From assembly GCA_018969685.1 (NCBI GenBank), contig JAGWXX010000004.1, positions 1 through 58,119 of the forward strand: a DNA stretch of 58,119 bases. The letters run 5' to 3'. The position numbers and the translations under genes were made by a program. Within the stretch, counting starts at the first letter, position 1, and each line of letters starts with the position of its first letter. Below, in pieces: positions 14,115 to 58,119 of this stretch. Source of the DNA: Acidobacteriota bacterium. GTDB taxonomy: Bacteria > Actinomycetota > Acidimicrobiia > Acidimicrobiales > Ilumatobacteraceae. Below the pieces are notes generated by a model, which saw only the letters and a list, made by a program, of their open reading frames with translations, made no database searches and had not been told where the DNA came from.

Positions 14115-16112
14115 TCAGCGCTTGCCGTCGCCGGCGGCGAGGACCTCGATGACGGCGATCCGTACCTGTTCGCAGAGCGAGGTCGGACCTTCGCGGTCGG
14201 CCGCGGGGAGTTCCCGGCAGATGCGTTCGACGGCGCTGACGTCGTAATCGATGGTGGTGGCGACCGCGGCGATGTAGAAACGTACGCACTCGTTGCGTGC
14301 CCCGTCGTTCCCGGCCGCGTCGCAGACGGCGATGGCGTCGCGGGCGGGGATGCCGACCCCGGCGGCGGCACGGGCCAGTCCCCGGTAGCACGGTTCGACG
14401 TGTCCGGTGGTGCCGCACCATGTGCCGAGCTCGCGGAGGCTCTCGACCGGCGCGGAGGCGTCGAGGGTGTTGCCGACGTACTCGATGCATTCGGTCGCCC
14501 AGCGCTCGGGGATGTTCAGGCAGACGTCGCGCGGCCTGCTGACTCTCGGGGTGACGGCGGCGTTCGGGTCGGCGGTCGCGGTGGCGAACCATTCCATGGT
14601 CACCCCGGTGCCGCAGCCGTTGGAGGCGATGCGCAGGCGCTCTCCGGTGAGGTTCGTGTTCAGGGCCAGCGCGTCGCAGAACTCGAGGGACCGGACCATG
14701 TCGTTGTTGGTGCGTCGTGCGGCGGCGTGTCCGATGCCGTGGTTGCACTGCATGTAGAAGAGTTCTTCGGCGCTCGCGAACTCCTCGCAGAGGGTGGGGA
14801 CGGCCTCCAGGAATGTCTGGTCGTCGAATCCGCCGGCGGCTCCTTCGACGATGCCGTGGTAGTACCCGAAGTCGCAGACGTCGTAGCCGTCCCGGAACGC
14901 GTCGGCGAGGTTTCCGTTGACCCGGAGGCTTTCGCGGCCGATCGCGTGGGATGCCTCGTGGCAGAAGAAGCGGGCGCGGCTCTCGGTGCCGAGGAGCCGT
15001 TTGAGGGTGTCGAGGGCGACGACGATGCTCTCGGAGCGTGCCGTGGCGACGAGGGACTCGTCGAGACAGCGCTGGATCTGTAGGCGGTTGGTGCCGGCCA
15101 GACAGCTGGCGGCCGGTCGGGTCTCCGCGGCGAGGGGGTCGATACGGGTCCGGACCTCGAGCGCGAGGGCGCTCGAGGTGAGCAGGACGAACGCCACGAG
15201 GGTTACCGTAAGCGGTACGGCCGACGTCTTCTCACCGCGTTTGCCGGCGAGAATCCTGGTGACGTTCAGCGGGAGGACGACGGAAAGGAACATCGTCAGC
15301 GCCGCCAGCGCCAGGAGCGACGCACCGGCGAACGGGTTCGCCGGTGTGTTGCGCACGATCGCGGCAACGGCCCCGGCAGGCAGGAGGGTGAGACCGGTGA
15401 CGGTCATCGCCCGAGCCGTGTTCGATGGTACGTGCGAGTCGTTCTCGTCGGGGATGTCCACGGCCGCGTGTCGTGAGCCGGCCCCGGCGGCCAGGAGTGC
15501 CGCTCCGGCCGCTCCGGCCGCCGTGAGAAGGAAGGTGATGCTGCCGCCCAGTGTGCTCGGCGGCGCGAGGAGTGCTGCGCCGCCGAGGGCGAGGACGGAG
15601 GCGACCGTCCAGCTCAGGGCTGGTCGGTTGGTGGAGCTGGCGGCTGTCCGGGTGGTGGAGCGTGCGAGGGCGAGGGCGACGACGATGAGCAGTGTGCCGA
15701 TCGCGAACGCCGTCAGGGGACGAGGGTCTTTCCCGATGCCGGCGATGGTCGCGTCCGGGGTCCCGACGCTGAACGTGCTCCAGCCGTTGCCGTTCTCCGA
15801 ACGCCATTCGAGTATGTAGGTGCCGTCCTCGAGTACGGGCGGGAGTGCCCGGACGACGCCGGGGACGCGTTCGATCGCGCCGGTGAAGGCGACGGGGTTC
15901 CCGTCGGCGTCGCGGAGTTCGAGAGTGACCGGGCCGTCGCCGGGGAGTTCGAGGAGGATGCGTTCGGGGGTTCCGCGGAGTATTTCGCCGTCAGCCGGGG
16001 TGGGCGTCCCGTTGCCGTGGGCGTGCGCGGTCCCGGAACCCAGGAGAACGCCCGCCGCGACGAGCAGTCCGAGAAACGCGCCTCGTCGGCCTCGGGTGCG
16101 CGGATGGGGCAT
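14115..16112 (-). CDS. Membrane protein: CopC-like domain, multi-TM region, C-terminal Cys/His-rich domain
   Basis: Signal peptide ending AHAHGNGTPTPADG, CopC-like beta domain (TYILEWRS...), many TMs, then CHEASHAIGRE...CDFGYYHGIVEG...CNHGIGHAAARR. Confidence 0.75.
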   Translation of the reverse strand: MPHPRTRGRRGAFLGLLVAAGVLLGSGTAHAHGNGTPTPADGEILRGTPERILLELPGDGPVTLELRDADGNPVAFTGAIERVPGVVRALPPVLEDGTYILEWRSENGNGWSTFSVGTPDATIAGIGKDPRPLTAFAIGTLLIVVALALARSTTRTAASSTNRPALSWTVASVLALGGAALLAPPSTLGGSITFLLTAAGAAGAALLAAGAGSRHAAVDIPDENDSHVPSNTARAMTVTGLTLLPAGAVAAIVRNTPANPFAGASLLALAALTMFLSVVLPLNVTRILAGKRGEKTSAVPLTVTLVAFVLLTSSALALEVRTRIDPLAAETRPAASCLAGTNRLQIQRCLDESLVATARSESIVVALDTLKRLLGTESRARFFCHEASHAIGRESLRVNGNLADAFRDGYDVCDFGYYHGIVEGAAGGFDDQTFLEAVPTLCEEFASAEELFYMQCNHGIGHAAARRTNNDMVRSLEFCDALALNTNLTGERLRIASNGCGTGVTMEWFATATADPNAAVTPRVSRPRDVCLNIPERWATECIEYVGNTLDASAPVESLRELGTWCGTTGHVEPCYRGLARAAAGVGIPARDAIAVCDAAGNDGARNECVRFYIAAVATTIDYDVSAVERICRELPAADREGPTSLCEQVRIAVIEVLAAGDGKR

Positions 16113-16119
16113 GGGCCCG

Positions 16120-16147
16120 ACTGTGTCACCGGTCGTCGAGGTGGCAA
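16120..16147 (-). promoter_or_regulatory. Predicted leaderless promoter TTGCCA-N16-CACAGT-N7-ATG
   Basis: Minus strand: TTGCCA 16142-16147, CACAGT 16120-16125, ATG at 16112. Confidence 0.5.
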
Positions 16148-16182
16148 CGAGCAGCGCCGCGTCCGTCGGTGCGCCGGAAAGG

Positions 16183-16210
16183 TTGCGTTCCCGTCCCCCG
16201 GGGTCACGGT
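16183..16210 (+). promoter_or_regulatory. Predicted leaderless uvrB promoter TTGCGT-N16-CACGGT-N7-GTG
   Basis: TTGCGT 16183-16188, CACGGT 16205-16210, GTG 16218. Confidence 0.5.
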
Positions 16211-16217
16211 GGGGCAG

Positions 16218-18242
16218 GTGCCTTCCGACCGCTCGTTGTTCACCGTCCGGGCACCGTTCGCACCCTCGGGGGACCAGCCGGCGGCGATCCGGGGGGTGCT
16301 CGAGCGCTTCGGGCGCGGCGACACGGCGGTGACCCTTGCCGGCGCGACCGGTACCGGGAAGTCCGCGAGCACGGCGTGGGTCATCGAGGCGTTGAACCTG
16401 CCCACGTTGGTGCTCGCGCCGAACAAGGTCCTCGCCGCCCAATTGGCCAGCGAACTGCGCGAACTCCTGCCCGACGCGTACGTGGGGTTTTTCGTCTCGC
16501 ACTTCGCCTACTACCGACCGGAAGCGTACGTGCCTTCCTCGGACACGTTCATCGAGAAGGACTCGGCCGTCGACAGCGAGATCGAGCGTCTCCGGCACGA
16601 AGTCACGGTGAACCTCCTGACTCGTCGGGATGTGGTGGTGGTCGCGTCGGTCTCCGCGATATACGGACTCGGCCGCCCGGAGGAGTATCGCCGCCGGCTG
16701 CTACGGGTCTCCGTCGGCGAGCAGCGTGACCGGGACGAGGTCGTCCGTCACCTCGTCGGCATGGAGTACACCCGGAACGACGTGGTGCTCGAACGCGGAC
16801 GGATCCGCGTTCGCGGCGACGTTCTCGACGTCGTCCCTGCGTCCGGCGAGGACGCCTACCGGATCGAGTTCTTCGGCGACGTCATCGAGTCGCTCGCCGT
16901 CGTCGATCCGGTCTCCGGGATGGTCAGGGAGAGGCCTTCGTCGCTGGTGGTGCCTCCGGCGTCGCATCACGTCTTCGACCCGGCGCTGAAGGAAGCGGTG
17001 CTCGCCGACGTGCGTGCCGAGCTGACCGGACGTCTCGCCGAGCTCGAGGGCGCGGGGCGTCTCCTCGAGGCGCAGCGGCTGCGTCAGCGCACCGAGGAGG
17101 ACATCGAATCCATAGAGACGGTAGGTTTCTGCCGCGGCATCGAGAACTACTCGCGGCATTTCGACCGCCGGGCGGCGGGGCAGCGTCCGTCCTGTCTGCT
17201 GGACTTCTTCTCCGAGGATTTTCTCCTGGTGGTCGACGAGTCGCACGTCACCGTCCCGCAGATCGCGGCGATGTATGAGGGGGACCGTTCCCGGAAGTCC
17301 ACGCTCGTCGAGTACGGGTTCCGGCTCCCGTCCGCGCTCGACAACCGCCCGTTGAAAGCCGACGAGTTCTGGTCGATGGTGCCGAGGGCCCTGCTGCTGT
17401 CGGCGACGCCGGGTCCGTGGGAGGCCGAGGTCTGCGAATCGGGTTTCGTCGACCAGGTCATCCGTCCCACCGGTCTGATCGATCCCGCGGTCACGGTGCT
17501 TCCACAGGAGAACCGTCTCGAGGATCTCCTCTCGCGGATCAGGGACCATGACGGCCGCGGGAACCGCACGCTCGTGACGACCCTGACCAAGAGACAGGCC
17601 GAGCAGCTCACCGAGTTCCTCGCCGCCCAAGGTCTCCGGGTGCGTTATCTCCATTCCGACGTCGACACGGTCTCGCGCATCGCGACGCTCCGTGACCTCC
17701 GGCGCGGCGCTCTCCAGGTCGTCGTCGGTGTGAACCTGCTCCGCGAAGGTCTCGACCTGCCCGAGGTGGGGCTCGTCGCGGTCCTCGACGCGGACGCGCA
17801 GGGGTTCCTTCGTTCGGCGACCTCGCTCGTACAGACGATCGGCCGCGCCGCGCGCAACCCGGAGGGCGAGGTGCTCCTCTACGCGGATGTCATCACCCCG
17901 GCGATGCGGGCCGCGATCGACGAGACCGACCGGAGGCGTCGCATTCAGATCGCGCACAACGAGGCGAACGGGATCGTGCCGACGCGCCTGGTCAAGACCT
18001 TGCGTGACGTCATCGGCGACGCCTCCGGAGGCGTCGCCGATGAGGAGGTCCCCGTCGCCTCGTCGGCTCCCGACACGGTGTCCGACATCCGGTCCCGTCT
18101 CGACGTCGCCCTCGTCGAGATGCGCGAATGCGCAGGCCGTCTCGCGTTCGAGGAGGCGGCCGTCTGGCGAGAGGAGGCGTCCGCGCTGCGCCGGCTGCTC
18201 CTGGAGCTCGAGGATCTCGGGGTCTCGGAACCTGCTCTTTGA
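16218..18242 (+). CDS. uvrB: Excinuclease ABC subunit B
   Basis: GATGTGKSAST, VSHFAYYRPEAYVPSSDTFIEKD, VASVSAIYGLG, helicase motifs (LLDFFSEDFLLVVDESH, LLSATPGPWE) and C-terminal UVR-like region. Confidence 0.95.
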   Translation: MPSDRSLFTVRAPFAPSGDQPAAIRGVLERFGRGDTAVTLAGATGTGKSASTAWVIEALNLPTLVLAPNKVLAAQLASELRELLPDAYVGFFVSHFAYYRPEAYVPSSDTFIEKDSAVDSEIERLRHEVTVNLLTRRDVVVVASVSAIYGLGRPEEYRRRLLRVSVGEQRDRDEVVRHLVGMEYTRNDVVLERGRIRVRGDVLDVVPASGEDAYRIEFFGDVIESLAVVDPVSGMVRERPSSLVVPPASHHVFDPALKEAVLADVRAELTGRLAELEGAGRLLEAQRLRQRTEEDIESIETVGFCRGIENYSRHFDRRAAGQRPSCLLDFFSEDFLLVVDESHVTVPQIAAMYEGDRSRKSTLVEYGFRLPSALDNRPLKADEFWSMVPRALLLSATPGPWEAEVCESGFVDQVIRPTGLIDPAVTVLPQENRLEDLLSRIRDHDGRGNRTLVTTLTKRQAEQLTEFLAAQGLRVRYLHSDVDTVSRIATLRDLRRGALQVVVGVNLLREGLDLPEVGLVAVLDADAQGFLRSATSLVQTIGRAARNPEGEVLLYADVITPAMRAAIDETDRRRRIQIAHNEANGIVPTRLVKTLRDVIGDASGGVADEEVPVASSAPDTVSDIRSRLDVALVEMRECAGRLAFEEAAVWREEASALRRLLLELEDLGVSEPAL

Positions 18243-18334
18243 CAGACGGTTGCCGCCGCCGACGGTCGCTCTCGCTCCGGTCACACCGGAGACCGGTCGT
18301 CGTGACCGGCACCCGAACGGCAAGGAGTATCGAG

Positions 18335-18556
18335 ATGCCTGATTCCACTGGTTCCCGCGTCACCAACCAAGCTGCTGTCGTCGCCGTCCGCGCGACGGTC
18401 GGCAGCGGCTGCTCGGAGGATCTCGCCGTCGAGATCGTCGAAGTCGTGCGCCCACACCTGGAAGCTCCGATCTTCTCGATCGTGAAGGCCCTCCAGAAGG
18501 AGCTCTCCGACGCGCGCGCGGAGATCGCGCGTTTGCAGCAGCCACCGGCGAACTGA
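18335..18556 (+). CDS. Small hypothetical protein, 73 aa
   Basis: ATG with upstream caaggag; TTGACA-N16-GACGGT at 18239-18266. Confidence 0.6.
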   Translation: MPDSTGSRVTNQAAVVAVRATVGSGCSEDLAVEIVEVVRPHLEAPIFSIVKALQKELSDARAEIARLQQPPAN

Positions 18557-18686
18557 GCCGCGTTTCCGGGGAACCCGGCTACGGGTACGCCGCGCGCCGC
18601 CCGCGCGCACGACATTCGCCAACGCCCGCCCAACCGCAGGGTGTTCGTACCCGGACCGTCGTGCCGCACGTCGTACGGTCGGCAGT

Positions 18687-19139
18687 ATGGGTCACCCCGA
18701 TCTGCAGCTGGTGCTCTCGTTCAAAGGTGTCCTCGAACTGCGCGACAGCGAGGAACTGGTTCGTGTGCGTCTGGGCGCCCGGTCACTCGATCCGCTCGCG
18801 GTTCGTCTCGCCGTCGATTCCCAGGACGGGACGGCGAACTGGGTTTTCGCCCGCGATCTGCTCGTACGGGGTCTGCACGAGTGCGCCGGCGAGGGGTCCG
18901 TGCAGGTCAGGCCGTGTCCGCATCCGTCCCGCCGGGCGATGCTCGACGTCGTCCTCGAGGGTGGGGACGGTTTCGCGCGCCTCCTTCTTCCGCGCGGCCC
19001 GGTCACGCACTTCTTGGATTCCTCCGACGCGTTCACGCACGGGGAGCTCTCCCAGGAGCTCCTGGTGAAGGATCTTGCCGCGGAACTCGCCGATATTCTC
19101 TCCCCGGAGGGCGGCCAGGACCCTTTCGGCGAAGACTGA
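18687..19139 (+). CDS. SsgA-family sporulation/cell-division regulator-like protein
   Basis: SsgA-like core: LAVRLAVDSQDGTANWVFARDLLVRGLHECAGEGSVQVRP; leaderless TACGGT-N7-ATG. Confidence 0.8.
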   Translation: MGHPDLQLVLSFKGVLELRDSEELVRVRLGARSLDPLAVRLAVDSQDGTANWVFARDLLVRGLHECAGEGSVQVRPCPHPSRRAMLDVVLEGGDGFARLLLPRGPVTHFLDSSDAFTHGELSQELLVKDLAAELADILSPEGGQDPFGED

Positions 19140-19366
19140 CGGTCGATTCCCGCGAGTCTGTGGGGTTTCAGCCAGTAGCAGGTTTTGTGCAATCTGTGCG
19201 TTTCGTGCCTGGGCGCATCGGGCGGGAGACGGTGGGGTTCTGACGGTGTGGTTCACGTTCCGGGGCACCGGGGCGGCCTCTCCGGGTCAGATGCCTGGTG
19301 CAGGGGAAGGGATCAACGACCGCACCTTCCGGTCACCTAACCCGGGGAAACCCAAGGAGACATACC

Positions 19367-19738
19367 ATGATCACCCGCACCAAGAAGGCGTTCACCCTTC
19401 TCGAATTGATCGTCGTGTTGCTCGTTCTCGGCATTCTTGCCGCGATCGCAGTCCCGACCTTCAACACCGTGAAGACGAACTCCGCCAAGCGCTCCGCGCA
19501 GACCACCGCTGAGGGCATCGCCCGCAACGCGGATGCCATCGCAGCTTCTTCCGCTGACGGTGGTGCCGTGTCCGGCGCTGACCTGAACACCGCTGTCGGC
19601 GAAGCCGATGTCGAGGGCATCACCGGTTGGACCGGCGCCGCCGACACCGCCTACGACACCGTCATCAGTGGCAACACCATCACCTGCACCTTCACCTTGG
19701 GCTCGTCCACCACGGCGACCTCGGTCAGCTGCGCCTGA
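19367..19738 (+). CDS. Type IV prepilin-like protein
   Basis: Type III signal MITRTKK-A-FTLLELIVVLLVLGILAAIAVPTF, then small Thr/Ala-rich domain. Confidence 0.9.
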   Translation: MITRTKKAFTLLELIVVLLVLGILAAIAVPTFNTVKTNSAKRSAQTTAEGIARNADAIAASSADGGAVSGADLNTAVGEADVEGITGWTGAADTAYDTVISGNTITCTFTLGSSTTATSVSCA

Positions 19739-19785
19739 TCTTCCTGATCAGTTGAGGGCTCAGGTTCGCCTGTAGCTCTCAGGGC

Positions 19786-19833
19786 AAAGCCCCCCGACCC
19801 GTCCCGCGCGAGCGGGAGAATCGGGGGGCTTTT
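19786..19833 (+). terminator. Intrinsic terminator after the prepilin gene
   Basis: AAAGCCCCCCGA ... TCGGGGGGCTTTT. Confidence 0.85.
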
Positions 19834-19890
19834 CCTGTGTACGGGGAGGATCGGGGGAGGAGTCCCTGCGCAGCGCCCCGGCTCAGTGGC

Positions 19891-20364
19891 TCAGAGCGCG
19901 CCGAGGAGGGTGACGACGAGGAGCGCGCCGACGAGCAGAACGATCAGGCCGATCAGCGCGCTCCTGCGGACTCCCCGTACGGAAGGCCGATGGCCGACGG
20001 TGTTCTCGGTGATGCTCGTGGAACCCCGCAACTGACCCGCGCTGCGCAGCGCGTCCTGGTCGACCTCGTAGAGCCGCACCCGGGGGTCGTCTCCGCGCCC
20101 GCCGCCCAGATCGGCCGGGGTGAATCCGGCGACCCCGTACGCGGGAGGGTTCGCGCTCGTCATCTCACCGAACTGGTTGCGGTACTGCCAGCCGCCGGTG
20201 TCCGGATCGATCGACCACTCCAGACCGTTGTCGTCCCTGGCGATGAGGGTCAGGACCCGCCTCCGTGCCTCCGCCGGAGGGATGCGCCCGGCACGGAAAT
20301 CGGTCATCACGTCGTCGTACGCTGCAGCGATACGGGCCAAGTTCGGGTGCAGGGGACGATCCAT
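19891..20364 (-). CDS. Hypothetical protein with C-terminal TM
   Basis: MDRPLHPNLARIAAAYDDVMTDFRAGRI... ending ALIGLIVLLVGALLVVTLLGAL. Confidence 0.65.
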   Translation of the reverse strand: MDRPLHPNLARIAAAYDDVMTDFRAGRIPPAEARRRVLTLIARDDNGLEWSIDPDTGGWQYRNQFGEMTSANPPAYGVAGFTPADLGGGRGDDPRVRLYEVDQDALRSAGQLRGSTSITENTVGHRPSVRGVRRSALIGLIVLLVGALLVVTLLGAL

Positions 20365-20430
20365 CACCTGCAGCATCGGCCCTGCACGTCTGCGATTGCC
20401 GCTCCGGGCCGCCGGGACACGTTCCTCCCC

Positions 20431-21807
20431 GTGAGCACCGCCCCGCTTCCCCACGACCCGGATCGCGCGTCCACGACGTTCCGTCTCGGTCACCTCTCCG
20501 ACACGCACATCGGGTACGAGGCGTACAAGGCGCTCAGCGCCTCCGGGGAGAACCAGCGCAGCGTCGACGTCGCCAAGGCGTTCGTCACCGCCGTCAGCGA
20601 GATCGTCGAGTCCGATCCGCCGCTCGTCATCCATTCCGGCGACCTCGCCGACCGCACCGTCATCCCGATCCGCCTCATCCTCCTCATCCGTCAGCAGCTC
20701 CAACGTCTCGCCGGCATCCGTCCTGACGGCACGCGCCGCCAGGTGGTCCTGCTGGCCGGGAATCACGAGCTCCCGCGCCAGCGCAAGGAGGCGTGCTTCC
20801 TCCATCTCTTCGACGGTCTTCCTGGTGTGCAGGTCGTGACCCGGGACTACACCCAGCTGCGCTTCCCCGACAGCGGGATCTCCGCCGGCCGTGACCCGCT
20901 CCTCGAGGACGTCGTGGTGCACGCCCTGCCGCACGACGCGCTCAAGACCACCGATTTCGATCTCGTCCGTCCGCTCCCCGGTACGGTCAACATCCTCACC
21001 GCGCACGGTGTCGCCGGCGGCAGCGAGCTCTACCTCCGCTCGCTCGGCCGCGAGTTCACCATCCCGACCGAGGTGCTCGCCCGTGCCTGGGAGTACGGCG
21101 CTCTCGGTCACTGGCACAAGCAGGGCCCCGTCCCCTTGATGGCCACCGGGGCCGGTGCCGACACCGAGAAGGGTCGCGTCTGGTACGCCGGCTCGAGTGA
21201 GAACATGGGTTTCGGCGACCTCAAGGAGAACGGCACCCGCCGTGGCTGGCTGAACGTCACCGTCCGCGCCGGTCGAGACCCGGTCGTCGAGCGTCGTTTC
21301 GTTCCCATCCGTTCGATGCTCCGACTCCCCGTCCTCGACGGGAAGGGTCTCGATCCGAACGCGATCACCGACGCGCTCGTCGAGCGCGTCCGCGCCGCGT
21401 CCACCAGCGGGGCGGTCGTCGGACAGATCGTCGAGAACGTGCCACGAGACGTCTGGTCGCTCGTCGACGTGGCCAAGGTCCGCAGCAGCGCCGGTGACGC
21501 CCTGCACTACGAGGTCTCGCTCCGGTCGCGCCAACGCGAGATCGCCAAGGACGGCGAGGCGCCGGCCAAGCCGCTCGCCCGCGGTCTCGGCGACGTCGAG
21601 GCGGTACTCGTCGAGCGGGCCAACGAACTCCTCGCCGAGCACGAACGCGAGGGCGCGCTCGTCCTGGCGCGCGAGCTCCTCGCCCTCGAGCTCGAACGGA
21701 CGGCGTCAGCCGATGCATCGGTCGCCGCGGAGACCCTCGAGGAGTCGACAGCGGAGGCCGTCGTCGACGGGAAACAGGCAGACGAGTCGAAGGTGGTCGT
21801 GTCATGA
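20431..21807 (+). CDS. sbcD: Mre11/SbcD-type nuclease subunit
   Basis: HLSDTHIGYE, HSGDLADR, LLAGNHELP, AHGVAG, GHWHKQ metallophosphoesterase motifs; GTG start at TTGCCG-N16-CACGTT-N7. Confidence 0.9.
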   Translation: MSTAPLPHDPDRASTTFRLGHLSDTHIGYEAYKALSASGENQRSVDVAKAFVTAVSEIVESDPPLVIHSGDLADRTVIPIRLILLIRQQLQRLAGIRPDGTRRQVVLLAGNHELPRQRKEACFLHLFDGLPGVQVVTRDYTQLRFPDSGISAGRDPLLEDVVVHALPHDALKTTDFDLVRPLPGTVNILTAHGVAGGSELYLRSLGREFTIPTEVLARAWEYGALGHWHKQGPVPLMATGAGADTEKGRVWYAGSSENMGFGDLKENGTRRGWLNVTVRAGRDPVVERRFVPIRSMLRLPVLDGKGLDPNAITDALVERVRAASTSGAVVGQIVENVPRDVWSLVDVAKVRSSAGDALHYEVSLRSRQREIAKDGEAPAKPLARGLGDVEAVLVERANELLAEHEREGALVLARELLALELERTASADASVAAETLEESTAEAVVDGKQADESKVVVS

Positions 21808-24116: not shown

Positions 24117-24155
24117 ACGAGCATCTCCGCGTCTCGACGACCCCGTCAACCCGCC

Positions 24156-24178
24156 CGGAAAAAGCGGTTGCTTTTCCG
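24156..24178 (+). terminator. Possible terminator after sbcC
   Basis: CGGAAAAAGC-GGTT-GCTTTTCCG. Confidence 0.5.
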
Positions 24179-24273
24179 CCGCGACCCGGACAGTACCGGC
24201 CGGATCGCGACACCACGATCTCCCGGACCGACCGGGAAGCGACAAACCCGACCAACGAAAAAGGAGCACGTGT

Positions 24274-24630: not shown

Positions 24631-24639
24631 GCGTTGCTT

Positions 24640-47521: not shown

Positions 47522-47585
47522 GCGTCGCGGCCCCGGTCGGAGCGTTCGTCACCGTCTCTCCCGTGCCGCCGCGTCGTCCGCGGGT

Positions 47586-48296: not shown

Positions 48297-48447
48297 GTCT
48301 CCGACAGTCCGGTGTGCGTGCCGTGCGTCAAGAACCGTTCGTCGTTCAGGGCCTCGCCCCAATGCCGTTCTCCGGGGTCCGCGCACGGTCGAGATGCCCG
48401 TCGCCGCACCGTTACGCGCGTCCGGCGTCGAATCCGAGGAGGAGCAA

Positions 48448-48771
48448 GTGTCCACGATCCAACGAACGTCAGTGCCCCGGGCGTCAACGGCGACGCAGGA
48501 GCTGCGCCTCGAGGAGCTTCTCGGTGCGGCGTTCGACGACCTCTGGGCGGTCGTCGTCGTCAACGACGACGTCACCACGTTCGCAACGGTCATCACCGCC
48601 CTCGTTGAGATCTTCCACCACACGCCGCAGGCCGCCGAGGCGTTGGCGTGGACGGTGCATCGGAGCGGGCGCGCGCAGGTCGCCGTCGGCGACCGAGCGT
48701 TCGCCACCGACGGGACGACCCGCCTGCACCAGCGCGGGATCCAAGCGGTGGCCGAACCTCTCGGAGGCTGA
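48448..48771 (+). CDS. clpS: ClpS-family adaptor
   Basis: WAVVVVNDDVTTFATVITALVEIFHHTPQAAEALAWTVHRSGRAQVAVGDR; SD gaggagg. Confidence 0.85.
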   Translation: MSTIQRTSVPRASTATQELRLEELLGAAFDDLWAVVVVNDDVTTFATVITALVEIFHHTPQAAEALAWTVHRSGRAQVAVGDRAFATDGTTRLHQRGIQAVAEPLGG

Positions 48772-48829
48772 TCCGGCAGGACGCCTGCGGAACCGTGCGG
48801 TCGCCGGTCCGGAGAACACAGTCCTGGCG

Positions 48830-49909
48830 GTGGAACCTTCCAGCGATCGTCGCGGCCCGCGCCGGGTCGTCCTGCTCGCCGGCGTCCTGCTGCTCGCCGT
48901 CGCGATCCCGGTTCTCGCCGTGCGGTTCGCCGGCTCACCGCCGCCCATGAGGACGATCGTGGAGCTGCGTTCGGCGCTCGTCGCATGCTCGGACGGCGAC
49001 ATGACCGAGGGCCGGCTCATCGAGCCCGACGTGCAGGACTGCTACTACCGGGTGATGTCGTCGGCGGTGCGCGCCGGGCAGATGATGGACGTCCAGGCCG
49101 CCCTCGCCGAGCAGATCGAGGACACGCCCGGCATCTACTCGGCGTGCCACAGCGTCGGTCACCGCGTCGGCAAAGAGGCGTTCGCGAAGTACAAGGACAT
49201 CGCCGAGCTCATCCGCACCAACGATACGACGACCTGTCAGTACGCGTTCGGCCACGGGATACTCGACGGTTTCGCGTTCTCCGACCCCTCCGACGAGGAG
49301 TTCCGCGCCGCGGCGTCGGCCTGCGTCGCCATGCGGCTGCTGGGCCCGGAGGGCAACAAGGTCTACAAACTCTGCTCGGACGGCCTCGGCCACGCGGCCT
49401 GGACCTCCACCGAGGACGTCTGGGACGCCGTCGCGCGCTGCCGCATGCTCGACGACCCGCTGGCGCGTGCGACCTGCGGGGAGGGGATCATGATGCAGAT
49501 CTACGAACCGGCCGGCTCCGAACCCTCCCGCGACATCGCCCGCGCCCCGCTCGAGGTGCCACAGCTCTGCGTGTCCTGGCCGGACCTCGGTGAGACCCGC
49601 GAGGGGTGCTACTCGGGTTCTGGCTACGTCTACACCCGTGCCGCGTGGGTCCTGCACTATCAGCGCAACTCGAGCCCCGGAGGCGTGCTCAGCGCCGAGC
49701 AGCGTGCGCGCATGCAGACCCTGATGCTGGGCGCGGCCGCGCTCTGCGGCAAGCACCCGGATCCCAAGGGTGTCTCGGTGTGCCTGCGCTCGGTCGCCCA
49801 GCAGGTGCCCCCGAGCGTCTACGAGGACGAATCGCTCACCGACGCCGTCTGCGGGTCGCTGGGTGAGTTCGAGTCGTGGTGCCGCGAGTTCCGTTTCGAG
49901 GTTTCCTGA
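48830..49909 (+). CDS. TM-anchored stand-alone Cys/His-rich domain protein
   Basis: TM then ACHSVGHRVGKEA...CQYAFGHGILDG...CSDGLGHAAW; shares the domain with the 14115 and 55801 genes. CACAGT-N7-GTG. Confidence 0.75.
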   Translation: MEPSSDRRGPRRVVLLAGVLLLAVAIPVLAVRFAGSPPPMRTIVELRSALVACSDGDMTEGRLIEPDVQDCYYRVMSSAVRAGQMMDVQAALAEQIEDTPGIYSACHSVGHRVGKEAFAKYKDIAELIRTNDTTTCQYAFGHGILDGFAFSDPSDEEFRAAASACVAMRLLGPEGNKVYKLCSDGLGHAAWTSTEDVWDAVARCRMLDDPLARATCGEGIMMQIYEPAGSEPSRDIARAPLEVPQLCVSWPDLGETREGCYSGSGYVYTRAAWVLHYQRNSSPGGVLSAEQRARMQTLMLGAAALCGKHPDPKGVSVCLRSVAQQVPPSVYEDESLTDAVCGSLGEFESWCREFRFEVS

Positions 49910-49984
49910 CCCACGGACCTGGGGTACCTGTCCGGCGGCGCCGCGTCGCGCGGATCTCCTAGCCGCGGCTCGGTTCGCCGCCGC

Positions 49985-50782
49985 TCAACGAGAGAGTCGT
50001 CCGGCGAAGATCCAGCCCACGCACTTGCGGTTCTCGGGTCGCTTCTCGGTTGCCAGATGGAGGCGTACGGCGGCCTTCTGGGAGGTCATCGTCCGGTCGA
50101 CGACGACGTACGGCGCGGCGTCGTCGTTGCGTCCTATCCACGGGCGGATGGAGAGACGCATGGTCCCGTTCCCGGCCTTGGCCATGGCGATCGCGGCCTT
50201 GCGCGCGAGACTGCTGGTCGGGTGCGTCTCGAGGACGCGCTCGCCGTCGAAGATCGCGTACCCCGCTTTCCGGGGACCTTTCACACCGGTGGCCTTCACC
50301 TTGTAGCGGCGTCTCGGTTCACCGAGGAGCTCGACGCCGACCAGGCGGGGACGGTCATCCGCGGGCAGTCCCGTGAGGAGGGTCTCCCGCAGCGTGTCGC
50401 CGAGTGGAAGCAGGAGACCCGGCACGTCGGGCAGGGCGTGTTCGATCCCCTCGATCCGGACACGTCGACGTTCGTGTTTCCAGGCGCTCATGGGGGTGAC
50501 GGCGATCGCGAGGAGCGTGCCTCGCTCGCTCGACGGGAGCGCGCGCATCGCCCGGTCGAGTCCGAGGTACGGGTGCGCCGGCTCGGCGATGACGCTGCGC
50601 GGTGCGGCCGGGTCGAGATCGGCGAGCGACGCGACCACGCCGCTGGTCCCGAGCTCGAAGCGCTCGACGGTGACGGCGGCGTCGAGCGCCCGGTCGATGT
50701 CGGCGCCGGGCCCGAACGCGATGAACGCCCCGGACAGGTGGCCGACCATGCTGCGTTCTACGGTGAATCCTGGCTTGCTCAT
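49985..50782 (-). CDS. Hypothetical protein
   Basis: MSKPGFTVERSMVGHLSGAFIAFG...; SD cgaggagc. Confidence 0.65.
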   Translation of the reverse strand: MSKPGFTVERSMVGHLSGAFIAFGPGADIDRALDAAVTVERFELGTSGVVASLADLDPAAPRSVIAEPAHPYLGLDRAMRALPSSERGTLLAIAVTPMSAWKHERRRVRIEGIEHALPDVPGLLLPLGDTLRETLLTGLPADDRPRLVGVELLGEPRRRYKVKATGVKGPRKAGYAIFDGERVLETHPTSSLARKAAIAMAKAGNGTMRLSIRPWIGRNDDAAPYVVVDRTMTSQKAAVRLHLATEKRPENRKCVGWIFAGRLSR

Positions 50783-50914
50783 GGGGTGCTCCTCGTCGTT
50801 GTCGGGTTTCCGCGACGCGGTGTCCGTCCCGGGGCCGCGACTGTCCTGCCATCGTCCTGCTCGGCAGGGTGTTCATCCGTGCCCGCCTCGCCGGTTCGCG
50901 GGACGGTCGGCGGC

Positions 50915-51724
50915 GTGTACCGCCGTCTTCTGGTCCTGCTCTGCTTCGCCGGTCTGGCGCTCGGGGTCGCCTACGTGGGGACCGGGGTTCTCGAGGACGT
51001 GCTGCGATCGGCGCGTTCGGAGACCGCCCGCCGCGTCGAGTCGCTTCCGCCGCCCTCGGCCGACGTTTCCACGCAGTCGACGCCGCCTGCGTCCGTGTCC
51101 GCCCCGGACCAGATCGTCACCGATCCCGGCGTCGTCGCATCGTCGCCTTCGACGTCGGGTGCCTCAGTGCAGGGGTTCGCTCCGGCCGTGGCCGCCGACG
51201 TGGTCGCGAGGTTGAACACCGAGCGTCTCGCCGCCGGCCTCTCCGCGCTGCGTGTCGACGAGACGCTCGCCGCCGAGGCTGCCGCGTGGGCCGAGCAGAT
51301 GACCAGGAACGGTTACGTCCACAGCACCCACGACCGCCTGGTGATGCTCAGCAACGAGTTCGGCGGCGGCGGGATGGCGGAGAACCTGCACGCCCCTGAG
51401 GTCCAGTGCGCCGCCGCGCTGAGCTGCGATCTCGACGACGCCCGTCCGACGTCCGGCGTGCTCCACGTGGACTGGATGCGTTCGTCGTCGCATCGTTCCA
51501 CGATGCTCGATCCCGCCTGGGACCGTGTCGGTGTCGGTGTCTACTGCGACGCCGCCGGCCGCATGTGGGCGACGGCGCTCTTCGTCGCGCCCGCCGGGGT
51601 GGCCGTGTCCGGCGACGACGTGGTGCCGTACCGCGAGCCTTCGGTTTCCGGTAACGACGGGGTGACCTGTACCGGGAGCACGCGCGCCCACAATCCGCGC
51701 TGGCAGCACACGCCGGTCTCCTGA
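50915..51724 (+). CDS. CAP/SCP (PR-1-like) domain protein
   Basis: VVARLNTERLAAGLSALRVDETLAAEAAAWAEQM...ENLHA...VDWMRSSSHRSTMLDPAWDRVGVGVYCD; GACGGT-N7-GTG. Confidence 0.85.
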   Translation: MYRRLLVLLCFAGLALGVAYVGTGVLEDVLRSARSETARRVESLPPPSADVSTQSTPPASVSAPDQIVTDPGVVASSPSTSGASVQGFAPAVAADVVARLNTERLAAGLSALRVDETLAAEAAAWAEQMTRNGYVHSTHDRLVMLSNEFGGGGMAENLHAPEVQCAAALSCDLDDARPTSGVLHVDWMRSSSHRSTMLDPAWDRVGVGVYCDAAGRMWATALFVAPAGVAVSGDDVVPYREPSVSGNDGVTCTGSTRAHNPRWQHTPVS

Positions 51725-51737
51725 GCCGCAGACGCCG

Positions 51738-51770
51738 AAAGGGCGACCCGCGTGTCGCGGATCGCCCTTT
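51738..51770 (+). terminator. Intrinsic terminator, convergent region
   Basis: AAAGGGCGACCCGCG-TGT-CGCGGATCGCCCTTTC. Confidence 0.85.
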
Positions 51771-51793
51771 CTTGGTCCGGTTTCCCGGTGTGT

Positions 51794-53059
51794 TCAGGAC
51801 GCAGTGACCTGCGCCGAGGTTTCGATGCCCTCCATGTTGGCGGCGCTGTCGACGAGGTCGAAGATCGTCGCCTCCCATTCCTCGGAGAGTGCCATCAGGT
51901 ACTCCCATGCGAGATCGTTCGACGCGAGCGCCGTGTCGATCGTCGCGAAGAGGTCGGTGATCGAGACGATGTCGAGTTTCACGACGCCGACCCGACGGAA
52001 GCCGAGGAGGAGTTCTCCGCCCCAGGCGACCCGTTCGAGGACTTTCTCGGCCTCTGCCTTTTCGAGCGCCTGGGCGATCTCGAGCCGGCGTTGCGGTGTG
52101 GCCTTCAGGAGAAGGTCACGCACCGCCCCGTCGCGGGGTCGTCGTGGCGTGCCGCCGATGAGGTGGTTCACCACGAGCTGCACGGGTGACTCCTGCATGA
52201 TCCGCTCGTGGAGCTCGTCGCTCACCTCGGAGTTCGAGGAGAAGTACATCGCGGCGATCTCGGCGGTCTCGAGGATGAGTGCCATGTCGTCGAGTGCGGT
52301 GTACTTCACCGGTGCTGCCGGCGTCGTCGTCGCGCTCAGGTGACCTGCGGTCACCAGGACGTGCTGCGCTCCGGGGGTGAGCCGTCGGCGCAACTGGTTC
52401 TTCGACGTCAAGGCGTTCGCCAGGGCGGTGTCGCCGGCCGGGTTCCCGCTGCACGCCCATCGGGCGACTGCGGTGCTGACCGGCACGGACGGTTCGTCGA
52501 GGACGGCGGACGCGACGCGGTCGCGCAGGTCGTCGTCGATGTTGCCGAGCCGTCCGAGGAGGACGGCCGTGTCGACGCCTTGGCAGCCGATCGCGACGAG
52601 TCGCGGATCGGCGTCGAGGACGCGTTCGATGGGTTCACGCAGCGTCTCGGTCAGGATGGTGACGAGCGCCTGCGTGTCCGCACCGATCGCCTTCGCGACG
52701 AGATCGTCGCGTCGGAGGAGTTCGGCGGCGGCCGCGTCGGCGACCGTCTTGTCGGCGTCGCCGCTCAGGAGCGTGAGCTCCTGCGAGGTCGTCTCGCGGT
52801 TGGCCACCGCACCGAGTCGGACGTTGGCCGACGGGTGCGTGACGAGACGGGCTACGTTCGCCCGTCCGGGTACGAGCCGTCCGAGGGTCGTTCCGGCGTC
52901 GCCGCCGGACTTGAAGGTGAGGAGCTCGTCGAGGAGAGCGCCGGTCGGGATGACGCCGACGTACTCGAGTTGCTCGAGGTCGGCGTTCCGCCAGAGGACG
53001 TCCCCGGACGGGGATGCCTGCATGGGGGTTCCGATCAGGATGTTTGCGAGTGAGACCAT
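51794..53059 (-). CDS. LRV/HEAT-like alpha-helical repeat protein
   Basis: VTHPSANVRLGAVANRETTSQELTLLSGDADKTVADAAAAELLRR; SD aggaggc; TTGCCC-N16-GACGGT at 53103-53130 (minus). Confidence 0.65.
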   Translation of the reverse strand: MVSLANILIGTPMQASPSGDVLWRNADLEQLEYVGVIPTGALLDELLTFKSGGDAGTTLGRLVPGRANVARLVTHPSANVRLGAVANRETTSQELTLLSGDADKTVADAAAAELLRRDDLVAKAIGADTQALVTILTETLREPIERVLDADPRLVAIGCQGVDTAVLLGRLGNIDDDLRDRVASAVLDEPSVPVSTAVARWACSGNPAGDTALANALTSKNQLRRRLTPGAQHVLVTAGHLSATTTPAAPVKYTALDDMALILETAEIAAMYFSSNSEVSDELHERIMQESPVQLVVNHLIGGTPRRPRDGAVRDLLLKATPQRRLEIAQALEKAEAEKVLERVAWGGELLLGFRRVGVVKLDIVSITDLFATIDTALASNDLAWEYLMALSEEWEATIFDLVDSAANMEGIETSAQVTAS

Positions 53060-53182
53060 GATGCCTCCTGGTGCGGCGGGTGCCGCGTGTGTGGTTCCGG
53101 TCACCGTCGTGGCCCCGCCGGCTCGGGCAAAGACCGCGTCACCGGTCCGGTCTCCGCGGCGGTCGCCGGCCTTGCCGGTCGT

Positions 53183-53821
53183 TCAGCCGTCGTTGCCCGG
53201 GGCCGGTGGTTCGCCGACCTCGATGCCTTCCGGTCCGGTCGCGGTGGGTTTGGCCGTCGGCGGCCACGTGGGGTACCAGACCCGGCCGTTGTTCTCCGCG
53301 ACGGTCTCGTCCGGGCAGCCTCCCGCGGTCGAGCAGGGGAGGAGGGCATGGTCGGCGAGCTGGTCGGCGCTGCAGTTCGGTGCGAACACGTTTCCGTACA
53401 CGACCTGCGGGTCGGCGTACGCCCCGGAGATGCGGATGCCCCAGCAGGTGCCCGTGTCGCCGGCGGCGACGAAGATCACATGGTCTTCGCGCGAGAGCAT
53501 GGAGGTGGCCTCGGTCCCGTACCCGAAGTTCAAAGTGGCGCGCTCGCTGCCGATGAAGACGATGTCGCTGATCTCCGGGTTCAAGGTGTCGGTGTCGAGG
53601 TTCCCCCAGCCGTCGTTCGTCCGGGCGAGCGGCGCGACCTCGCCGACGAGCCGTCCCAGCCGTTCCTGCAGGGATGCGTCGTCGTACTTCGCGACGTAGA
53701 GCTCGGTCCCTTCGAGGTTGACGAGCGGGCGTACCGCTTCCTGCTCCGGCGAGGCGCAGGAGGCCAGGAGGGCGGGCAGGATGAGGGCGAAGAGGCCGGT
53801 GAAGAGACGTGCGCGGTTCAC
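53183..53821 (-). CDS. Putative lipoprotein
   Basis: GTG start overlaps the CopC-CopD gene stop by 4 bp; lipobox LPALLASCAS. Confidence 0.7.
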   Translation of the reverse strand: MNRARLFTGLFALILPALLASCASPEQEAVRPLVNLEGTELYVAKYDDASLQERLGRLVGEVAPLARTNDGWGNLDTDTLNPEISDIVFIGSERATLNFGYGTEATSMLSREDHVIFVAAGDTGTCWGIRISGAYADPQVVYGNVFAPNCSADQLADHALLPCSTAGGCPDETVAENNGRVWYPTWPPTAKPTATGPEGIEVGEPPAPGNDG

Positions 53822-55695
53822 GGGACGCTCCGGACGGCGGGTTCGATGATCGCGTCGAGCGTCACCGCGTCGACGCTGCCGTCGTCGAAGGTCACGAGGA
53901 GATCGAGCTTCCAGGTACCCTCGACGCCGAGGTCCCGGGTGCTCAGGAGCCACGAGCCGTCGGGCTGCGGGGAGAACTCCCGCTGGAGCGGCCCGATCTC
54001 GATGCGGGCCAGAGAGAACGCTCCCGTGACGGCGCTCAGCCGGCGGCTCTCCCCGTTCGCGTCGAACGCCGTGAAGAGGAAGCGGTTCTCCGCCCCGGCG
54101 CGTGCGGGCAGGATCTCGAGGACGGCCTCGCCCGGCCCGAAGGGCGCCCGCACCACCGTCGGTTCGAAGTCGTCGAGCGCGAGGCTCAGGCCGAGATCGC
54201 CTTCGCCGCCTCCGAGGTGGCTGTGCCCGCCGCCTGCGAAGTGGTTGCCGCCGGCCGCCGGCGCGGCGCCCGAGGTGAGCGCCGCGGTGGCGACGATGAT
54301 CGCCGCGAGCATGCCGGTCTCGGCGAGGAGGCTCCGTTTCAGGTGGGTCCTGACCGTACCGGTATCGACGGGTCCGACGGGTCCGTCCGGCGTATCGGCA
54401 GCACCTGCCGTCGTCTCCGACGTGCCGGTCGCGTCGCTACCGCCCGCTCGCACCGAACGCCTCAGGGCCGGGACGAGCGCGAAGTGGTTGTACGCGCCGA
54501 TGCCGCCGACGATGGCGACGAGGAGGAACTTCGCCAGGAGCGTGAGCCCGTAGCGATCGGTGAAGAGTTCGGTGGGGGAGGTGAACATGGCGCTCGCGAG
54601 GATGCTGCCACCCACGAAGACGGAGACGACGCTCACGGTCGCGAGCTTGGAGAACCGTTCGACGATCTCGGCGATCACGTCGTCGGCGAGACGGGAGCGT
54701 CGCAGGACGACCCACGCGACCCCCGGGATGCCTCCGAGCCAGACGCTCGCCGCGAGCAGGTGGAGGATTTCGCCGATGCTCCCGGCGATCTTCCACGGCA
54801 CCACGGCGACGTGACCACCCATGGCGAAGGAGAAGGCGACGCCGGCGGCGGCGATCGCCCCGATGAGCGCCCCGACGACACGGGTGCCCTTCTCGGCGAG
54901 CAGGAGCACCGCGGTGCAGAGACCGAAGAGCGCGCTCATGCGCACCAGGAGCGCCGCGCCGGAGGACGACTGCAGCACGATCTGCACGATGATGCCGATC
55001 GAGTCCCACGACCCGCCGTTGAGCAAGAGCGCGTTGTTGAGCAGCGTCAGCGGGGTCAGCACGAGTCCGAGGATGGCGAACACGGTGCTCCCGCGCCGGA
55101 GCAGCGCGCCCAGTTGCGGGTCGGCCCCGACGGCGAGCGGGCCGCTGAGCGCCCAGAGCGCGGCGAGGAGTCCGACGGCGAGCAACACCGAGAGGTAGGT
55201 GCCACCACGCAGCAGGTGGGAGAGCGTGATGAACTTCGCGGTGGGGTCGTCGACCTTCTCGGCGCGTACGGCGCCGCCGGCGTCGGCCGGGTCACCGTAG
55301 AAGAACGTGAAGCTGCCGTTGATACCGTGTCCGTCCTCGGACACCGCCCGCCACGAGACCGCGTACCATCCGGTACCGGTGCGTTCCGGGAGGTCCCAGC
55401 GGACTCGCAGGCCGCCACCTGCGGGTTCGTTCGAGCGTTCCGCCAGTTCGGTGACGGCGCCGCCCGCGTCGATGAGCCGGGTGGAACCTTCGGCGACGGT
55501 GACCTTTTCGTTGAAGACGATCTCGATGAACTCGGGAAGTTCCTGCAGGACGCTCCCGTCGGCCGGGTTCGTCGAGGAGACCGACGCGTGCGCGGACACC
55601 GGAGCGACCGGCGAGAAGAACGTCCCGAGGAGGGCGAGCAGGAGGAGGAGACCTCCGCGGTGCATGGCGCGGGTGCGTTTCAGGTGACGTCTCAC
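53818..55695 (-). CDS. CopC-CopD fusion (YcnJ-like) copper-related membrane protein
   Basis: SAHASVSSTNPADGSVLQELPEFIEIVFNEKV, WRAVSEDGHGINGSFTFF, CopD-like multi-TM region (LHLLAASVWLGGI). AACAGT-N7-GTG. Confidence 0.85.
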   Translation of the reverse strand: MRRHLKRTRAMHRGGLLLLLALLGTFFSPVAPVSAHASVSSTNPADGSVLQELPEFIEIVFNEKVTVAEGSTRLIDAGGAVTELAERSNEPAGGGLRVRWDLPERTGTGWYAVSWRAVSEDGHGINGSFTFFYGDPADAGGAVRAEKVDDPTAKFITLSHLLRGGTYLSVLLAVGLLAALWALSGPLAVGADPQLGALLRRGSTVFAILGLVLTPLTLLNNALLLNGGSWDSIGIIVQIVLQSSSGAALLVRMSALFGLCTAVLLLAEKGTRVVGALIGAIAAAGVAFSFAMGGHVAVVPWKIAGSIGEILHLLAASVWLGGIPGVAWVVLRRSRLADDVIAEIVERFSKLATVSVVSVFVGGSILASAMFTSPTELFTDRYGLTLLAKFLLVAIVGGIGAYNHFALVPALRRSVRAGGSDATGTSETTAGAADTPDGPVGPVDTGTVRTHLKRSLLAETGMLAAIIVATAALTSGAAPAAGGNHFAGGGHSHLGGGEGDLGLSLALDDFEPTVVRAPFGPGEAVLEILPARAGAENRFLFTAFDANGESRRLSAVTGAFSLARIEIGPLQREFSPQPDGSWLLSTRDLGVEGTWKLDLLVTFDDGSVDAVTLDAIIEPAVRSVP

Positions 55696-55800
55696 CGGGA
55701 GCACTGTTGGCTTCGGGGCGAAATCAGCACGGGACAGGCGTATCGTGCCGCTCGTCGGCCGAGGGGATGCAGGGGATGTCGACGAGGCGGGGTCCATGGT

Positions 55801-58119
55801 TCAGCCCTGGCTTCCTGGTGCGGCTTCCTTCGCCGGGTCCACGATGAAGCCCCGCAGGGTCTGCTCGATCTGCACGACCATCGAATCGCGGACGATCTTG
55901 CAGAGGTACCGGTACTCCTCGGGTACCACCGGGCAGAACTCGTCGATCGCGGCCGCGTCGAGCGCGATCGTCGCCACGCTCCCGAGCGCTCGCGTGATGC
56001 ACTCCCGGGCGTAGATGCCGGGCCGGCCACCGGTGCAGATCTCCATGGCGCGCTCGGGGGTGATGTGGGGTGACCAGATGACGTCGCGGCCGATCGACTG
56101 GTAGCAGGGCAGAGGGTTGGGGAGGTTCTTGTCGCACCAGTCGCGCGCCTCGATCTCGCGCTCGGGGAGACCGCCCATCGCGGACGTGCCGTACTCGATG
56201 CAACCGGTGTGGAAGATCGGGTCGAGGCCCACGCACTGACCCAGCAGGGTGTCGGGGTGCCCGACGGGCAGGTTCATCGCGTCGAGAGCCTTTCGTTGGG
56301 TGTTCCACTCCATCGCGACGCCGGTGACGCAGAGACGGAAGATCACCTCGGGGGTGCTCTCCTTCGACGGGTCGTCGTCGTTGGAGAACTCCTCGGGCTT
56401 GTAGAAGACGCGGCAGAAGTCCATGCCTCGTTCCAGGTCGTTGTTCACCCGCCGCGCCGCGGCATGACCGAGACCGTGGATGCATTGGCGGTAGCCGTGG
56501 TTGGTGGTGTCGCCGGTGCCCTCGCAGAGGTTCGGCATCTCCCGGCGGAGCGTCTCGTCGCTGAAGTCGGCGCTGGCCCCTTCGATGACCCCGTGGAGGT
56601 AGCCGTAGTCGCAGGGGTCGGATCCGGCCGCGAAGGCTTTCGGGATGTCCTGGTAGATCTTGAAGCCCATGCGTCCCAGCTTGTGACCGATCGAGTGACA
56701 GTTGGTCTGCATCCAGGAGTCGCCCTCCTGCCAGCGGCGGCTCACCTCGCGGAGCGCGACACCCATGCCGTTGCTCTTGACGATGCCTTCGAAGTAGCGG
56801 TTCACACAGAGCAGCTGGTCGGTGGCCGAGGATGGGTCCATGCATTCGTCGAAGGTCTTCGGCGTGGCGAGCAGGTCGGATCCGGGTTCGGCGCTGAGCG
56901 TGCCGACGGTCGCTTCTTTGACCGGGGAGAGTCCGGCGAGCGACGATCCGAGGAGCACGACGACGGCGATGAGCCAGCCTTCGAGCGCGAAGCTGCGCCG
57001 GAGGCGGGGGGCGCCCGCGTGCCCGGTCGCGTCGGGTTCTGCAGCCGTCGCCGGCGGCAGCGCCGGTGTCTCCGCGGCGCCGTCGTCCAGGTCGTCGGCG
57101 TTCAGGTCGTCGGCGAGAAGGTTGCGCAGCCGGGGAAGTACGCCGCGTGCCGCGTGGTAGATCGCGATCGGTGCGATCCCGAGGAGGACGAGGCCCCATT
57201 TCGCGACGAGGATCTGGCCGTATCGGTACTCGAGGAACGCCAGGAGGTCGGTGATGTTGGCGGCGTGCGTGCGCACGACGGTGAGTGCCACGCCGCTCAG
57301 CATGATGGCTCCGACGGCGATCACCGCGGGCACGGTGAACGACGTCATGAACGCACGGTTCGCGCCCCGGCGCCCGGCGAGGAGGAACGTCGCGAGCGCC
57401 CCGGCCCAGAACGCCGCCCCAAGCAGGTGGACGACGGTGAGCGGTACGAGCAGCCCGGGGAGCAGAGCGGTGCCCATGTGTCCGGTGAGGGTCTCACCGA
57501 CGGCGAACAGCACGAGTCCTGCGGTCGTCGCGACGGTTCCGCGCACCGCGAACAGGGTGGCGACGGAGACGATGACGAGGAGCCAGCCGAGCACCGTCGG
57601 CATCGTGGTGGCGACGCGTCCGAATCCGTAGAGCAGGCCGGAGCCGGCCCCTGCACGTGTCGAGACGACGAGGAGACGCAGCACGGTCATCGCGGCGAGC
57701 CCGAGGGCGAGCCGTCGGTGGAGGCGTCCGGGGTCCGCGCCGAGAAGATCCCGTCGGGCGAGCCAGACGGCGCCGAGCCATCCGGCGAGGATGCCGTAGA
57801 GGGAGAGTCTGGTGAGCGTGTCGCCGAGGGTTCCGAGGAGCCCGGTTCTCGGGGTCAGGTCGCTGATGGGTCCGCCGTCGGGCTGCCCGACCGAGAAGTA
57901 CGACTGCCCGGCGGCGACGTGTCCGTCGGAGCCCACCGATCGCCAGACGAGGACGTAGGTCCCGTAGTCGAGCGCCGGCGGGGTGAGGGTGACGGTGCGG
58001 CCGTCGAAGCGGGGACCGTCGCCGGTGAAGGGGACGGGCGTGCCGTCGCGGTGGGAGAGGGAGATTTCCACCGCGTCGGGGTCGGGGTCGTTGGAGAACC
58101 GTATGGTGAGCGTGGCCGG
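55801..58119 (-). CDS. CopC-CopD fusion with C-terminal Cys/His-rich domain (N-terminus outside window)
   Basis: Frame open to the window edge (ATLTIRFSNDPDPDAVEISLSHRDG...WRSVGSDGHVAAGQSYFSV), CopD-like VVHLLGAAFWAGALATFLL, then NCHSIGHKLGRM...CDYGYLHGVIEG...CIHGLGHAAARR. Confidence 0.82.
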   Translation of the reverse strand, partial: PATLTIRFSNDPDPDAVEISLSHRDGTPVPFTGDGPRFDGRTVTLTPPALDYGTYVLVWRSVGSDGHVAAGQSYFSVGQPDGGPISDLTPRTGLLGTLGDTLTRLSLYGILAGWLGAVWLARRDLLGADPGRLHRRLALGLAAMTVLRLLVVSTRAGAGSGLLYGFGRVATTMPTVLGWLLVIVSVATLFAVRGTVATTAGLVLFAVGETLTGHMGTALLPGLLVPLTVVHLLGAAFWAGALATFLLAGRRGANRAFMTSFTVPAVIAVGAIMLSGVALTVVRTHAANITDLLAFLEYRYGQILVAKWGLVLLGIAPIAIYHAARGVLPRLRNLLADDLNADDLDDGAAETPALPPATAAEPDATGHAGAPRLRRSFALEGWLIAVVVLLGSSLAGLSPVKEATVGTLSAEPGSDLLATPKTFDECMDPSSATDQLLCVNRYFEGIVKSNGMGVALREVSRRWQEGDSWMQTNCHSIGHKLGRMGFKIYQDIPKAFAAGSDPCDYGYLHGVIEGASADFSDETLRREMPNLCEGTGDTTNHGYRQCIHGLGHAAARRVNNDLERGMDFCRVFYKPEEFSNDDDPSKESTPEVIFRLCVTGVAMEWNTQRKALDAMNLPVGHPDTLLGQCVGLDPIFHTGCIEYGTSAMGGLPEREIEARDWCDKNLPNPLPCYQSIGRDVIWSPHITPERAMEICTGGRPGIYARECITRALGSVATIALDAAAIDEFCPVVPEEYRYLCKIVRDSMVVQIEQTLRGFIVDPAKEAAPGSQG

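Follow-up and report, generated by a model that had tools for sequence, protein, structure and literature searches.

The stretch of DNA analysed here, referred to as the window, is a contig of 58,119 nucleotides (JAGWXX010000004.1) from a bacterium of the Ilumatobacteraceae, and it encodes three proteins that share an extracytoplasmic domain of ~330 amino acids rich in cysteine and histidine (the Cys/His domain). The family and the fold of this domain are undescribed in every source searched (Pfam, NCBIfam, PHROG, PDB, BFVD and the literature); its chemistry is a prediction. We suggest that it probably represents an unrecognised family of metal proteins, likely copper proteins, because it is extracytoplasmic, disulfide-bonded and equipped with five constant His, and because it has repeatedly been joined to copper- or electron-carrying domains. 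The explanation that best covers all of the evidence, and which we hold with moderate confidence, is a disulfide-stapled extracytoplasmic metalloprotein domain that has a five-His site and acts together with a donor of electrons or copper.

A Cys/His domain without a known family or fold

The window constitutes the entire contig C110 of the source genome (1.96 Mb, 124 contigs, 92% complete). Since gene 3 runs to the end of this contig, it is 5'-truncated. Gene 2 is encoded on the plus strand, the other two genes on the minus strand, and the features are as follows (TM, transmembrane).

14115..16112, minus: gene 1 (P0002), ATG at 16112; signal peptide, CopC-like domain, ~6 TM helices, C-terminal Cys/His domain
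15798..16001, minus: CopC-like part of gene 1; Pfam CopC E=0.033; NGN replaces the DGH copper motif
14136..15119, minus: Cys/His domain of gene 1; CHEASH 14946-14963, CDFGYYHG 14853-14876, CNHGIGH 14727-14747
48830..49909, plus: gene 2 (P0001); N-terminal membrane anchor, Cys/His domain
48941..49906, plus: Cys/His domain of gene 2; CHSVGH 49145-49162, CQYAFGHG 49235-49258, CSDGLGH 49373-49393
55801..58119, minus: gene 3 (P0003); CopC, CopD-like region, C-terminal Cys/His domain; 5' end cut at the contig end
57889..58119, minus: CopC domain of gene 3 (residues 1-77); intact DGH copper motif at 57919-57927
56941..57354, minus: CopD-like membrane region of gene 3 (residues 256-393); Pfam E=1e-6
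55846..56871, minus: Cys/His domain of gene 3; CHSIGH 56683-56700, CDYGYLHG 56590-56613, CIHGLGH 56464-56484
56311-56331, minus: Met position in the gene 3 domain, CVTGVAM
53818..55797, minus: P0004, CopC-CopD protein with a His-rich segment; CopC 1.3e-18, CopD 4.6e-16

The initial annotation had pointed to a Cys/His motif common to the three proteins, and this is found in all of them, as CHEASHAIG/CDFGYYHG/CNHGIGH in gene 1, CHSVGHRVG/CQYAFGHG/CSDGLGH in gene 2 and CHSIGHKLG/CDYGYLHG/CIHGLGH in gene 3; the MEW/CIEY positions that it listed align as well. When the gene 3 protein was searched against its own genome, gene 1 was recovered at 2.9e-37 and gene 2 at 8.9e-12, which excludes chance resemblance and identifies the three proteins as true homologues. 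The same query found two further copies outside the window (C23, 1.8e-18; C124, 1.2e-8), giving a genome total of five, and a CopC-like segment precedes the domain in four of these. Directly before the C124 copy lies the gene for a secreted protein with a GmrSD_C/HNH-like nuclease domain (L152 8178-9140, plus strand; PF07510, 1.1e-7).

Two of the copies had been described as fused to CopC/CopD-like regions. In gene 3 the CopC match is above the Pfam cut-off (PF04234, 8e-9) and the CopD match falls just under it (PF05425, 29.5 bits against a cut-off of 32.1). The CopC-like part of gene 1 is sub-threshold in Pfam and shares 47% identity with that of gene 3 (E=1.6e-7); no Pfam match to CopD was found in gene 1, where the corresponding region holds the TM segments. 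As to CopC ligands for Cu(II), gene 3, whose N-terminus is cut off, retains DGH, and gene 1 lacks this motif. The middle copy, gene 2, is indeed anchored by one N-terminal TM segment (residues 13-31) and is without CopC or CopD. P0004 begins 3 bases past the end of gene 3 on the same strand and is its probable operon partner.

The CopC match does not include the Cys/His domain itself. A Pfam family with a known non-metal function was named in the initial annotation as something that might overturn its reading; no existing Pfam family was found for the domain, nor did any model in NCBIfam or PHROGs match it, and a sequence search of PDB returned no relative. P0001 gave one weak match to DUF5885 (PF19232; 0.023, 14.6 bits against a cut-off of 33.2) and its relatives none, and this identity was rejected. 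AlphaFold2 confidently modelled the gene 3 domain (predicted local distance difference test, pLDDT, 90.4; predicted template modelling score, pTM, 0.89) and a member from Patescibacteria (pLDDT 92.4, pTM 0.86), both as all-alpha structures. Foldseek comparison of both models with PDB gave nothing at E<=0.001, the best template modelling score being 0.34, and BFVD, a collection of predicted viral structures, held no match to the fold. Literature searches gave no description of the motif or of such CopC-CopD fusions.

Probable disulfides and a predicted five-His site

The collected family comprises 144 distinct members, and Cys and His conservation was counted over 102 of them, numbered according to the gene 3 domain. 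The ~16 Cys form eight consecutive pairs, one per helical hairpin. Both partners of C10/C22 are lost in 9 of the 102 members and one in 2 (Fisher p=4.3e-11); for C58/C87 the figures are 3 and a single apparent one-sided loss, which is an alignment gap in L143 (Fisher p=2.3e-5). Where other pairs show losses, these trace largely to rows that are misaligned or partial (L143, L096), and we give them little weight. Three Patescibacteria genomes related to Doudnabacteria contain tandem arrays of 6-8 neighbouring, highly divergent copies (L184 1-18001, L183, L185; G571, G780, G783), in which both Cys of C58-C87 are substituted, and a new Cys often stands two residues ahead of the conserved His. In these copies and in those of Gemmatirosa and Nitrospirota the pair is gone or moved, and every His is retained. 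Because the Cys are lost or kept in pairs they are read as disulfides and not as metal ligands, a reading that also draws on the signal/TM topology and on DsbA or VKOR neighbours. We are highly confident in predicting that the Cys pairs are disulfides, one of which would staple each hairpin of the scaffold.

The Hcp proteins of Helicobacter, which are of the Sel1 type, are likewise built of helical hairpins with one disulfide each. Unlike Sel1, TPR or PPR repeats, however, the Cys/His domain has no profile match at E<=1 and no fold match in PDB, and its conserved set of five His across the repeats is no feature of those families.

These five His are contributed by HxxxH and HG, on helices A and B of hairpin 2, respectively, and by HGxGH on helix B of hairpin 3, and each of them (H59, H63, H93, H132 and H136) is present in 101-102 of the 102 members. 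All five are retained in 23 of 23 complete tandem-array copies despite a median identity of 19%, and only C116, C130 and G135 are as constant there; Met is kept in 17 of 25 array copies, and Arg/Asp positions, Thr/Ser positions and some disulfides drift. Met is usual at the matching position of hairpin 4 (M187).

In the AlphaFold2 models H59/H63 and H132/H136 are each spaced i,i+4 on one helix. Conservation is highest 3-7 residues past the second Cys of each hairpin, so that H93, H136 and M187 occupy equivalent places on helices that follow one another. With H63, H93, H136 and M187 each 5-6 residues past the Cys that opens their helix, these residues would stand at equal height on adjacent helices; this register, together with the bond predicted for C58-C87, is the basis for proposing a single shared metal site formed by the five His and the Met. 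That the His bind metal is likely. Copper, suggested by the five His and by the fused or adjacent copper proteins, is the metal we would name, with somewhat less assurance.

Distribution, fused domains and gene neighbourhoods

The domain had been suggested to be a lineage-specific module. This is rejected by its distribution over several phyla and two domains of life. Within the order of the window 10 of 198 genomes are positive, the source genome included, and none of the six genomes listed from the same genus or family carries the domain; in Actinomycetota it is present in 15 of 297 genomes, and in the phylum of a Doudnabacteria genome in 14 of 287. A scan of species genomes found 125 relatives, of which 80 were kept, in Acidimicrobiia, Rubrobacter, Thermoleophilia, Gemmatimonadetes, Nitrospirae, Deinococcales, many lines of Patescibacteria, Saccharibacteria and three Woesearchaeota; Streptomycetaceae are also represented among the 144 members. 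Kitasatospora purpeofusca and Gemmatirosa kalamazoonensis, both of them cultivated, carry the gene on plasmids. Viral contigs and phage collections yielded no relatives, and given also the lack of a fold match in BFVD a viral or phage origin was rejected. In a tree of 85 members the window copies form two long-branched groups, the exact placement of which is unsure. One actinobacterial family includes three large complete genomes with short open reading frames (for example G220:C1:4083826-4084041, L147) that match only the first 75 residues, from CHxxxH to HG, of the Kitasatospora member; these are possibly a truncated or minimal form of the domain.

When the 144 members were sorted by sequence motif and length, 28 fell into a CopC/CopD fusion type, 13 into a cupredoxin type, 5 were fused to cytochrome c and 5 were of other kinds. 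Every fused domain that could be named is a copper or electron-transfer protein. Pfam backs the fusions to CopC/CopD, to Cupredoxin_1 (L118, 9.8e-9; L124, 1.2e-6; array members) and to Cytochrome_CBB3; L023, L025 and L184:3686 were assigned by regular expression and have no Pfam match. The copper site of CopC (N-terminal His and DGH) is intact in 26 of 27 CopC-CopD fusions. In L044, L045 and L047 a CopC/CopD-fused and a cupredoxin-fused copy lie ~2 kb apart or less on the same contig.

What the partners have in common is copper and the transfer of electrons on the outer side of the membrane. A small cytochrome-b5-like membrane protein is encoded directly downstream in six loci, from Rubrobacter, another actinobacterium, Saccharibacteria and Yonathbacteria, with two of the six calls above the Pfam cut-off and the remainder weaker. 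The Kitasatospora member is followed by CtaG (7e-74), with CcsB nearby. Cupredoxin and DsbA genes are found inside or beside the tandem arrays, one array gene encodes a 796-aa protein with a cupredoxin and two Cys/His domains, and at one locus VKOR starts 7 bases downstream of the domain gene. The extracytoplasmic location and the link to copper proteins, both part of the initial annotation, are supported.

Several other neighbours were observed. In two Saccharibacteria (L081 464-1243, L089 4428-5207) the domain gene is preceded, at a distance of 43 bases, by one for a heliorhodopsin (PF18761, 2e-93), and another heliorhodopsin is ~2 kb from the L070 member. In the window, gene 2 is directly followed by a gene for a secreted CAP-domain protein (50057-51724, plus strand; PF00188, 1.5e-11), and a prepilin-like N-terminus (TLLELIVVLLVLGILAAIAVP) is encoded at 19298-19738 on the plus strand, a possible type IV pilin in an actinobacterial genome.

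Redox chemistry, copper delivery and other readings

In the mechanism that we propose, partners such as CopC/CopD, cupredoxin, cytochrome c or cytochrome-b5-like proteins would supply copper to the five-His site, exchange electrons with it, or both, and gene 3 and P0004 would form a copper-handling operon. Copper nitrite reductases with fused electron carriers are redox enzymes tethered to a cupredoxin or a cytochrome c. The fusions described here resemble them, an electron carrier being joined to an extracytoplasmic His-site domain, but in neither sequence nor fold is the Cys/His domain related to the enzymes of this kind in PDB.

A serious rival is copper delivery, since the layout of gene 3 is that of the copper importer YcnJ with a new domain in place of YtkA. 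The YcnJ protein of B. subtilis is a CopC-CopD-YtkA chain in which CopC and CopD residues are required under copper starvation and YtkA aids assembly of CuA (PMC13344008). Gene 3 likewise carries CopC and a CopD-like region on a single chain, with an extracytoplasmic domain at the C-terminus; its relatives largely preserve the CopC site, and a CopC-CopD gene (P0004) is adjacent. In contrast to YtkA, the C-terminal domain is modelled as all-alpha, is Cys/His-rich, ~330 aa long and without a Pfam match, and is also found by itself or together with cupredoxin or cytochrome c. As a copper chaperone or cytochrome oxidase assembly factor it would hold copper and hand it over, as YtkA/CtaK and Sco do for CuA, and would have no redox chemistry of its own. 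The CtaG and CcsB genes near the Kitasatospora member are in keeping with this, as is the presence of COX1 in the genome of the window. However, COX1 was undetected in 24 of 29 domain-bearing genomes of Patescibacteria and archaea and in both Rubrobacter-type metagenome-assembled genomes tested; these assemblies are incomplete and some absences may be gaps. With COX1 undetected in most of these carriers, oxidase assembly alone would be insufficient as an explanation, and metal delivery leaves the cytochrome c fusion and the cytochrome-b5-like neighbours unaccounted for. We consider the chaperone explanation unlikely as a whole. On the same grounds, namely the hosts without COX1 and cytochrome partners that would be odd for a carrier, a five-His redox site is favoured over a pure carrier, and redox catalysis or electron transfer, as opposed to delivery of copper alone, is put at about an even chance.

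Binding of non-covalent heme, with His and Met as axial ligands in a b-type cytochrome or heme carrier, would suit the c-type cytochrome fusions, the cytochrome-b5-like genes next door and the way in which His, Met and Arg recur at corresponding points of the helices. Yet five invariant His exceed the needs of heme, it is Arg and Met that drift while all five His stay, and copper proteins are the commonest fusions. The CxxCH heme attachment motif is absent from the conserved columns of the domain and occurs only in the fused cytochrome c part. Heme binding is accordingly judged improbable. Slightly more doubtful still is a surface scaffold for recognition or adhesion, with a structural site (for zinc, for example), which Patescibacteria would have diversified to make contact with host cells. 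The divergent arrays would fit such a role, but their divergence spares the entire His set and most disulfides, cupredoxins lie within them, and actinobacterial members reside in copper or electron-transfer proteins. The initial annotation had left ligands and disulfides open for both residues; His are probable ligands, and Cys acting with them on a metal or heme, as their adjacency in CHxxxH and C.HG.GH might invite, is very improbable given their pairwise variation, the shifting C58-C87 beside constant His, and the extracytoplasmic setting with DsbA and VKOR nearby.

A number of observations weigh against the copper redox interpretation. Stand-alone proteins make up 93 of the 144 members, and the relatives were found from CopC/CopD-fused queries, so the count of that fusion is biased. 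By inspection, the CopC part lacks the DGH copper motif in three of the five genome copies (gene 1, C23 and C124), and gene 2 has Asp in place of H132. Cytochrome c and b5 partners indicate electron transfer and not copper specifically. We infer the clustering of the five His from helix register only, and the identity of the metal and the activity are predictions.

As a tentative proposal, which we regard as possible rather than likely, the family might be a new class of extracytoplasmic multi-His copper enzyme that may bind two copper ions and has a new helical fold stapled by disulfides. Its electron donors would be interchangeable (cupredoxin, cytochrome c, cytochrome b5), or CopC/CopD would supply it, and it would have expanded as tandem arrays in Patescibacteria, many of them without a respiratory oxidase. 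Patescibacteria are often described as fermenters. Should the domain prove to be a redox enzyme that uses copper, a further class of metal site would be known, and the sparse periplasm or surface of these organisms would gain an extracellular redox function. The family is confidently modelled and common to Actinobacteria, Patescibacteria and archaea, with the His set as its most strictly conserved feature, and the member in cultivated Kitasatospora makes it accessible to experiment.

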